A stretch of 5,751 nucleotides of DNA from the NCBI GenBank assembly GCA_001797815.1, contig MGQK01000084.1, positions 15,484 through 21,234 of the forward strand, given 5' to 3'. Position numbers and translations under genes: made by a program. The notes beneath the pieces were generated by a model. It had not been told where the DNA came from. It was given only the letters and a program-made list of their open reading frames with translations, and did not search any database. The DNA comes from Deltaproteobacteria bacterium RBG_13_61_14. GTDB lineage: Bacteria; RBG-13-61-14. Shown here piece by piece: positions 1,241 through 5,751 of this stretch. Numbering within the stretch: the stretch's first letter is position 1; every line of letters starts with the position of its first letter.

Positions 1241-1285
1241 CCTCACCCTCCCCTCTCCCCCGCAGGGGAGAGGGTTAGGGAGAGG
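1241..1285. repeat. Palindromic CCCTCTCCCC / GGGGAGAGGG hairpin
   Basis: CCCTCTCCCC (1251-1260) pairs perfectly with GGGGAGAGGG (1265-1274) around a 4-base loop, CGCA. The arms continue imperfectly outward (CCTCACCCTC on the left, TTAGGGAGAGGG on the right). The right half is copied a second time at about 1399-1419 as part of the 134-bp duplication. It resembles the purine/pyrimidine hairpins scattered between genes in many bacteria. No coding role is visible. Confidence 0.7.
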
Positions 1286-1529
1286 GATAAGCGCTTAGAG
1301 ACTATCTCAAAACCTCTGGTTTTGGATAATTATACAAAATGGCAATTTTTACCCGCGATAAAATCAAGGGCACGGCGTAGGGGCGGCTCGCGAGCGCAGG
1401 GGAGAGGGTTAGGGAGAGGGATAAGCGCTTAGAGACTATCTCAAAACCTCTGGTTTTGGATAATTATACAAAATGGCAATTTTTACCCGCGATAAAATCA
1501 AGGGCACGGCGTAGGGGCGGCTCGCGAGC
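1261..1529. repeat. Perfect 134-bp direct tandem duplication (two copies)
   Basis: Bases 1261-1394 and 1395-1528 are identical by eye over the full 134 bp, and one more matching base (C at 1395/1529) marks a 1-bp junction homology. Each unit carries the right half of the GGGGAGAGGG hairpin, the left terminal repeat and most of the body of MITE A, and the left half of the palindrome at 1511-1538. The first copy is therefore a truncated MITE (left end at 1298, broken at 1394), and only the second runs to its right end. The lack of any mismatch means the duplication is recent, or is an assembly artefact. Confidence 0.93.
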
Positions 1530-1561
1530 CGCCCCTACCTTGCCGGTTTTGAGATAGTTTC
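1432..1561. mobile_element. MITE-like element A (130 bp, 17-bp terminal inverted repeats, TTA duplication)
   Basis: The left end GAGACTATCTCAAAACC (1432-1448) matches the reverse complement of the right end GGTTTTGAGATAGTTTC (1545-1561) at 16 of 17 positions. TTA lies immediately outside both ends (1429-1431 and 1562-1564), in the context CTTAG. The element is non-coding. It holds a small hairpin CAAAACC-TCT-GGTTTTG (1442-1458) and a 28-bp perfect palindrome near its right end. A broken copy of its left 97 bp sits at 1298-1394. Known for IS5-family subgroups: short TNA target duplications. A parent element of that kind is an inference, and no transposase is encoded here. Confidence 0.7.
1511..1538. 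repeat. 28-bp perfect GC-rich palindrome
   Basis: GTAGGGGCGGCTCG (1511-1524) is followed directly by its exact reverse complement (1525-1538), with no loop. It lies inside MITE A near the right end and can extrude as a cruciform or fold back in single-stranded DNA. Its left half recurs at 1377-1394, where the tandem-duplication junction interrupts it. There is no T run behind it, so a terminator role is not supported. Confidence 0.9.
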
Positions 1562-1564
1562 TTA

Positions 1565-1755
1565 GAGCGTGTACGAAAAGGGTCGAGAGTTTGAATGCTT
1601 TGCGGTATTATTTATGCGGCCCTTGGGAGTGCGGAAGCTTGCTTCCGCTTTGGTTACGCCGGCTTGCTGGCGGGCTTTTCCGGGAGCAAGCTCCCGGGAC
1701 AAAAGCGGCGGCAAGCCGCCGCACTCCAAATTCAAAGACCTTTTCATACACGCTC
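1565..1755. mobile_element. MITE-like element B (191 bp, terminal inverted repeats, four internal hairpins)
   Basis: The left end GAGCGTGTACGAAAAGG (1565-1581 plus one G) matches the reverse complement of the right end CCTTTTCATACACGCTC (1739-1755) at all but one position. TTA flanks it at 1562-1564 and 1756-1758, both within CTTAG. Inside are four hairpins in a row: 1631-1648, 1658-1671, 1680-1697 and 1705-1722. Each has a 6-8-bp stem closed by GC-TT-GC (first two) or GC-AA-GC (last two), so the two halves are rough inverted copies of each other. Short open frames across it do not look like proteins. It appears to be a non-autonomous palindromic element. Confidence 0.7.
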
Positions 1756-1758
1756 TTA

Positions 1759-1870: not shown

Positions 1871-1909
1871 AAGTGTCAGCATTAAAAGGTCGCTTAAGTG
1901 CCAGCAATT
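1871..1909 (+). repeat. Direct repeat AAGTGTCAGCA / AAGTGCCAGCA, probable insertion-sequence left end
   Basis: AAGTGTCAGCA (1871-1881) and AAGTGCCAGCA (1896-1906) differ by one base and start 25 bp apart. They lie about 60-95 bp upstream of the transposase remnant, where an insertion sequence carries its end and transposase binding sites. No matching inverted copy was found downstream up to 2541, so the right end is either lost or too diverged to see by eye. Confidence 0.4.
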
Positions 1910-1929
1910 CGAGGTCAGTTGGTTTCGTT

Positions 1930-1935
1930 TATAAT
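1930..1935 (+). promoter_or_regulatory. Putative -10 box of the transposase remnant
   Basis: TATAAT matches the sigma-70 -10 consensus perfectly and sits 30 bp ahead of the ATG at 1966. The best -35 candidate, TTCGAG (1908-1913, 16-bp spacer), is poor. The transcript would include the strong Shine-Dalgarno AAGGAGG at 1954-1960, five bases before the ATG. Confidence 0.4.
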
Positions 1936-1965
1936 GCCGGAAACCCTTTTTCCAAGGAGGCCGGT

Positions 1966-2341
1966 ATGAACAAAAAAAACTTCTCTTCAGCGGCGTCGAG
2001 AAATGGTTGCGGCAGTCCGTCGGGGCAACTCGTTGCGCCAAGTCGCCCGGCGGTTTGGAGTTGCCCTCTCGGTCGTGCAACGCTGGGTTGTCCGGGCCGG
2101 AGAAGGCCGTTTGGATCGGGTGAACTGGGGCGACCGGACGCGCGGGCCGCGTTTGCCCCACAATAAAACCGCCCGGGAAACGGAAGAACAAATTTTGGAA
2201 TCGAGGCGTCGGCCACGTGCAAGAGCAGGTCCGCGGGCATCAATATCTTGCGGGCGACCCGCGTCCGAAAGTTGCGCCAGGCGGCGAAGCATGGCCCGGA
2301 ATTGGGAAAAACCTCTATTCCCGGTTGGGATGGGGTGTTGA
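1966..2341 (+). pseudogene. Decayed helix-turn-helix transposase, N-terminal part only, frame break in an A8 run
   Basis: AAGGAGG (1954-1960) precedes ATG 1966, but that frame leads only to a composition-biased 66-residue product ending at 2166. The frame one base further on encodes RRREMVAAVRRGNSLRQVA and continues as a classic helix-turn-helix (about 2027-2089, ending VVQRWV), then LDRVNWGDRTRGP and ETEEQILESRR. This is the N-terminal DNA-binding part of transposases that carry an rve/DDE integrase core. The two frames meet in eight A (1972-1979). One A fewer would fuse MNKKTSLQRRRE to MVAAVRRG, so a frameshift or slippage site lies there. Similarity fades after about 2212, and the frame closes with TGA at 2339-2341. 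The DDE catalytic core is absent, so the gene cannot make an active transposase. The exact IS family (IS481-like or similar) is not certain. Confidence 0.65.
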
Positions 2342-2541
2342 AATCTGTTTTCCAAGAGCGTTGGAGAGAGTTTTGGGTTCGCATCGAAACGATTTTCGTT
2401 CCGATTAAGCCAATGGCCGCTTCCGATGAAAAAGATTGGGGGCAAGACCTGAAAATGGCCGCGTGACTTTTTACGGGTCCATCCAGAATGCCTGTCCCAC
2501 TGATTTACTGCGGGTAGAGAGATGGGCCATGGTGTGGGGGC
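2213..2541. other. Intergenic stretch, no gene recognised
   Basis: Between the transposase remnant and the PHP gene, all frames are short and none reads like a known protein. It may hold further decayed insertion-sequence DNA or an old intergenic repeat. No clear terminator for the leftward PHP/M23 transcript was found. The PHP stop codon is at 2542-2544, and no GC stem followed by T on the minus strand is evident beyond it. Confidence 0.35.
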
Positions 2542-5565: not shown

Positions 5566-5630
5566 TGAAGGGAGCAAAGGGATCCGCCTTAAGAAAAGAG
5601 CTTCGGGTGGGTCATCCCCTAAATCTCCGG

Positions 5631-5751
5631 CTAAGCATAGCTCAGCGCCAAAATTTTCTCCCGCACCAGCTCAAAAAACGTCCGGTGAACTTCCGATCCC
5701 AGCCGGAGAAGCATCCGCCGAGCATGATGCACCACCTTTCCGACGGTGTTG
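5631..5751 (-). CDS. C-terminus of a DDE transposase (possibly IS1380-like), cut by window edge
   Basis: The frame is open from the right edge to TAG at 5631-5633 and gives 39 residues: NTVGKVVHHARRMLLRLGSE, then VHRTFFELVREKILALSYA. The pattern V-x-HARR-x-LLRL followed by a short amphipathic helix resembles the C-terminal end of DDE group 1 (IS1380-type) transposases. This is a similarity judged by eye over a short stretch. The catalytic part lies outside the window, so it cannot be said whether the gene is intact. It is transcribed toward the OadG-like gene. The end of the insertion sequence should lie within the next tens of bases (roughly 5566-5630), but no terminal repeat can be confirmed without the other end. 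Confidence 0.5.
   Translation of the reverse strand, partial: NTVGKVVHHARRMLLRLGSEVHRTFFELVREKILALSYA

Follow-up and report, generated by a model that had tools for sequence, protein, structure and literature searches.

Two joined mini-transposons of probable IS5 type sharing a CTTAG site in a deltaproteobacterial genome

Ends and layout of the two elements

In a previous sequence-only reading of 5,751 nucleotides of Deltaproteobacteria bacterium RBG_13_61_14 (the whole stretch analysed, here called the window), two short elements, A and B, were found end to end with a single CTTAG between them. The question that this locus raises is how two different elements came to share one site, and whether they are independent insertions under one target rule. 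We consider it very likely that both elements are non-autonomous MITEs of IS5 type, each inserted at a palindromic C-TWA-G with a 3-bp duplication. The window lies at the end of contig C84 of an assembly of 4.74 Mb in 132 contigs, and its features are as follows (window coordinates).

1261 to 1394, plus strand: first unit of a 134-bp sequence repeated exactly in tandem; the second is at 1395-1528
1429 to 1431: TTA, left target duplication of A, within CTTAG 1428-1432, read directly
1432 to 1561, plus strand: element A, a 130-bp MITE with ends GAGACTATCTCAAAACC and GGTTTTGAGATAGTTTC; the same ends are carried by full-length IS5-family elements
1511 to 1538, no strand assigned: perfect palindrome GTAGGGGCGGCTCGCGAGCCGCCCCTAC within A
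1562 to 1564: TTA common to A and B, within CTTAG 1561-1565
1565 to 1755, plus strand: element B, a 191-bp MITE with ends GAGCGTGTACGAAAAGG and CCTTTTCATACACGCTC
1623 to 1730: long inverted repeat in the interior of B, GGAGTGCGG...CCGCACTCC
1756 to 1758: TTA, right target duplication of B, within CTTAG 1755-1759

The three CTTAG sites are identical and stand exactly where they had been placed, at every border of A and B. The termini of A are imperfect inverted repeats of 17 bp that, together with the flank, form 24-nt arms with 88% complementarity, and those of B form 22-nt arms (flank included) with 91%. As single strands, A and B both folded into long hairpins far better than their shuffled versions (z of -7.4 and -6.2, respectively). 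Both are shorter than 500 bp, non-coding and bounded by terminal inverted repeats, as expected of MITEs; the open reading frames that cross them are mechanical and continue into the flanking sequence, and an Rfam search of the window gave no match.

The two elements also occur as multiple dispersed copies with target duplications. Element A had 10 paired-end copies in its own genome, and our sample from other genomes added 73 elements; B had three copies, all in its own genome. A was present without B at nine other loci and B without A at two; they are joined in the window only, and contig C60 carries both about 1.2 kb apart. Since the copies are mostly apart, A and B are independent families, which supports the earlier proposal of two MITE families under one target rule. 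To call their terminal repeats unrelated, as had been done, was slightly too strong, for GAG and AAAA are common to both and 9 of 15 bases are the same (chance P ~0.004). The interiors of A at the ten own-genome loci are of two types, with either the palindrome GTAGGGGCGGCTCGCGAGCCGCCCCTAC or CGGGCGGGTATCCAAACCCGCCC. The palindromes within A (1511-1538) and B (1623-1730) were also seen outside these elements, on their own or as parts of other element families, and further genomes contain them too. That of A, GTAGGGGCGGCTCGCGAGCCGCCCCTAC, stands alone at many further places in its own and other genomes. It is as if they were passenger palindromes common to different MITEs.

Target site and full-length relatives

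A-type elements were collected by scanning genome contigs for CTNAGAGACTATCTCAAAA, which yielded 26 DNA stretches, and by sampling about 80 places around matches to GARACTATCTCAA in the genomes where the first scan had matched; the latter pattern gave many matches against almost none for its backward control. Among 82 paired-end A-type elements from its own and other genomes, 45 were flanked by TNA on both sides, and 39 of the 45 had matching middle bases (expected, 49%; P 1.7e-7). The outer bases of the flanks were C in 73% and G in 71%, figures that are somewhat biased for the first scan, which demanded CTNAG at one end; the later matches were taken without this demand. On the basis of the matching middle base and the outer C and G, we conclude that the target of A is CTWAG with a 3-bp TWA duplication. 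Against this count six of the 45 elements, and several chained ones too, in which the middle base differs between the two ends. For B, the left site was CTTAG in all three copies and the right one in two, the third being CTCAG, so that two copies have TTA/TTA flanks and one has TTA/TCA. The TTA flanking that had been described for both elements thus holds in the window, whereas other copies of A often have TAA and some flanks are degraded. The renewal of CTTAG at every border, also proposed earlier, follows from a C-TTA-G target combined with a G at the start and a C at the end of each element.

The ends of A were found around full-length insertion sequences. In Phycisphaerales (L107) and Planctomycetota (L119) sequences they delimit roughly 0.9 kb encoding a transposase in two frames, parts of which match NCBIfam NF033580 (IS5 family transposase), Pfam DUF4096 and DDE_Tnp_1. 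When the genomes with A-type matches were queried with the L107 transposase, complete elements with A-type ends were obtained in two Chloroflexi sequences (L279, 915 bp; L282, 979 bp), and the L107 and L119 elements were recovered again (L278, 901 bp, and L280, 928 bp, respectively). CTNAG-type sites flank these full-length elements; in L282 there is TTA on both sides, but in the other three of the four TTA stands against TAA, a point against our main explanation. The search suggested by the sequence-only reading was therefore successful for A, with elements of 0.9-1.0 kb in Planctomycetota and Chloroflexi. A has the ends of full-length IS5-family elements, as an IS5 derivative should, and orphan MITEs of one genome are in this way tied to full-length elements of other phyla.

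In the own genome of A, profile searches for IS5-type transposases with PF13586 and PF13359 were empty, and the L107 transposase query gave no match there or in two genomes of the same order. The latter search lacked a positive control of its own, but the query did afterwards match in other genomes. Three PF01609 matches in the own genome were read from their sequences as IS4/IS1634-like and not IS5-type. Since no IS5-family transposase was detected in its genome, A is probably an orphan, although a draft assembly in 132 contigs easily loses repeats and insertion sequences.

For B, the outcome was different from that envisaged: a full-length partner with its exact ends was not found in 386 genomes or in viral contigs. 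In the former, the ends of B gave four single matches outside its own genome, about the yield of the backward control pattern, and in the latter three matches, none with a B-like partner end at the right spacing. The first 15 bases of B are the same at 12 positions as those of an IS5 element in L281 (GAGCCTATCCGAAAA; chance ~1e-5), whose flanks are CTAAG and CTTAG and whose protein matches NF033580. A related IS5-type transposase is the likely source of B.

The events at the locus might then be reconstructed as follows. A would formerly have been mobilised in trans by an IS5-family (NF033580) transposase that now appears to be missing from the assembly, and B probably by a related IS5-type enzyme. 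The first element would land, and the second would later enter one of the two border CTTAG sites of the first. Because both elements start with G and finish with C, each insertion would renew the border CTTAG, and because all three TTA are alike, the order of arrival of A and B cannot be told. Such chains might be kept because border sites in intergenic DNA would be tolerated landing places.

Chaining of elements and its alternatives

Junctions of the same form occur elsewhere in this genome. Two other CTNAG-bounded elements, C (185 bp) and E, adjoin A in other contigs (A with C in C79 and C76, A with E in C81), and C adjoins D (138 bp) in contigs C16 and C130. The families searched exhaustively (A, B and C) comprise 20 elements in the own genome, with three junctions among them. 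If insertions were random over all CTNAG sites (about 7,800, as estimated from 133 kb), 0.05 junctions would be expected (P 2e-5); restricting them to 15% or 10% of the sites, which allows for genes closed to insertion and takes the intergenic share as an assumption, raises this to 0.3 (P 0.004) and 0.5 (P 0.013), respectively. The idea that elements could chain without limit was not supported: no A-A chain was present among 82 A-type elements, a strict neighbour search of 162 element borders disclosed no convincing neighbour outside the own genome, and the longest confirmed runs within it are of two elements. The search for longer chains that had been proposed thus yielded a few other junctions in the own genome, none confirmed beyond two elements.

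Two candidate chains were discarded. What looked like E next to a further element, G, is actually a single 116-bp element with TTA/TTA flanks at two loci (L130 in contig C16 and L015 in contig C76), and an apparent chain at the IS element of L281 was ruled out as it is without a second inverted repeat. The two halves of the 116-bp element are related but stand in inverted order, and it has CTCAGCACTAAGTCCTGAG inside; it may represent an ancient dimer fused at a CTNAG site.

We weighed three other explanations of the locus. That A-B is a single composite element moving as one unit is suggested by the C-TTA-D pair, which at its two loci has different outer flanks (TTA/TTA vs TAA/TAA) with the same inner TTA, order and orientation, and by an A-C pair elsewhere with outer TAA/TAA and inner TTA. 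However, the A-B pair was found once, with A alone at nine other places and B at two, and the two C copies that stand next to D are not most closely related to one another, so that we regard a composite unit as very unlikely here. That assembly errors produced the junction and the tandem duplication beside it is highly unlikely: although the assembly is in 132 contigs and an exact 134-bp repeat adjoins the junction, the latter is formed exactly as the target rule predicts and has like-formed counterparts in the A junctions at other loci. Finally, CTTAG could be taken as part of each terminal repeat and not as a target duplication, since some neighbouring elements have CTTAG and CTAAG, inverted, at their two ends. 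An inverted repeat would not give the direct flanks (TTA/TTA or TAA/TAA) of 39 of the 45 A-type elements, and TTA/TTA is also found in two of the three B copies, which makes this explanation extremely unlikely.

We return to two separate insertions at C-TWA-G. The target rule and tolerated intergenic insertion explain most of the chaining. Among 146 half-sites taken from A-type elements of other genomes, the base A was in excess at -5 and -8 (chi2 51 and 33, 3 df). Those ends of C and E that touch element A begin with GTGCT and, by this -5/-8 measure, stand at the 97th percentile of own-genome CTWAG half-sites, while the ends of A itself are at the 27th-33rd percentile and those of B are average. 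These sequence comparisons are compatible with certain element ends being preferred targets. Going further, it is conceivable, though in our opinion rather doubtful, that the A-type transposase reads an extended palindrome of about A-N-N-A-C-T-W-A-G-T-N-N-T, that C and E ends of the GTGCT type imitate its half-site, dock and seed chains, and that pairs like C-TTA-D then move as compound units.

A tandem duplication, which the sequence-only reading had missed, takes in the left part of A and its left flank; its two 134-bp copies are identical. The first copy holds a CTTAG (1294-1298) and a truncated A (1298-1394) that precede the full A. The breakpoints of the duplication both fall mid-palindrome, at CCCTCTCCCCCGCAGGGGAGAGGG and at the CTCGCGAG centre within A. 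The duplication could be a real event or an assembly artefact.

Related systems and neighbouring features

Members of the IS1031 group (IS5 family) use TNA as their target and produce a 3-bp repeat (PMC12016507), and A resembles this group in its 3-bp TNA duplication (39/45), an assignment to be read with the proviso that NF033580 may span more than one subgroup. The full-length relatives of A (~0.9 kb) have two overlapping frames, as some IS1031 members do (PMC12016507); in contrast to IS1031-like elements, A and B encode nothing. In eukaryotes, PIF/Harbinger transposons duplicate TTA/TAA, have an IS5-like transposase and show derived MITEs and nested insertions (PMC2213677); they and the Tourist-like plant MITEs are like A and B in the TTA/TAA duplication, a likeness by description. 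The carrot DcSto Stowaway MITEs comprise several families that are clustered and nested, for which a 'safe haven' idea was put forward (PMC3695323), but they duplicate TA and are mariner-type and eukaryotic. In pneumococci, the small repeat families BOX, RUP and SPRITE are described as clustered and inserted into one another (PMC3049150; PMC10969869), and a shared site preference or tolerant regions have been proposed (PMC3049150). Their sequences are different from those of A and B, and the parts of these reports consulted do not describe exact sharing of a 3-bp border. A-B is thus a clear new instance of something already known, chained mini-transposons, tidy but ordinary. It shows for bacteria how, with a short palindromic target and elements bounded by G...C, the target is preserved at each border, so that different mini-elements can stack without losing the landing site, and it could aid the recognition of MITE chains in intergenic DNA.

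Other features were noticed in the window and in other sequences. At 1873-2466 (plus strand) there is a transposase remnant with a helix-turn-helix and a broken frame, with weak matches to NF033577 (IS481) and to IS630, far below the cut-off. Two A-type elements in different Chloroflexi genomes (L111, 5820-5834, and L252, 305-319) have the left flank CAAAGTCCAGCTAA in common and not the right one. At 5620-5751 (minus strand), CTAAATCTCCGGCTAAG is followed by an apparent transposase C-terminus cut by the contig end, a 37-aa piece that is IS1380-like by eye and gave no HMM match. Ends of the CTAAATCTCCGGCTAAG type also bound MITE-like elements in L015 and L022, which represent a further family.
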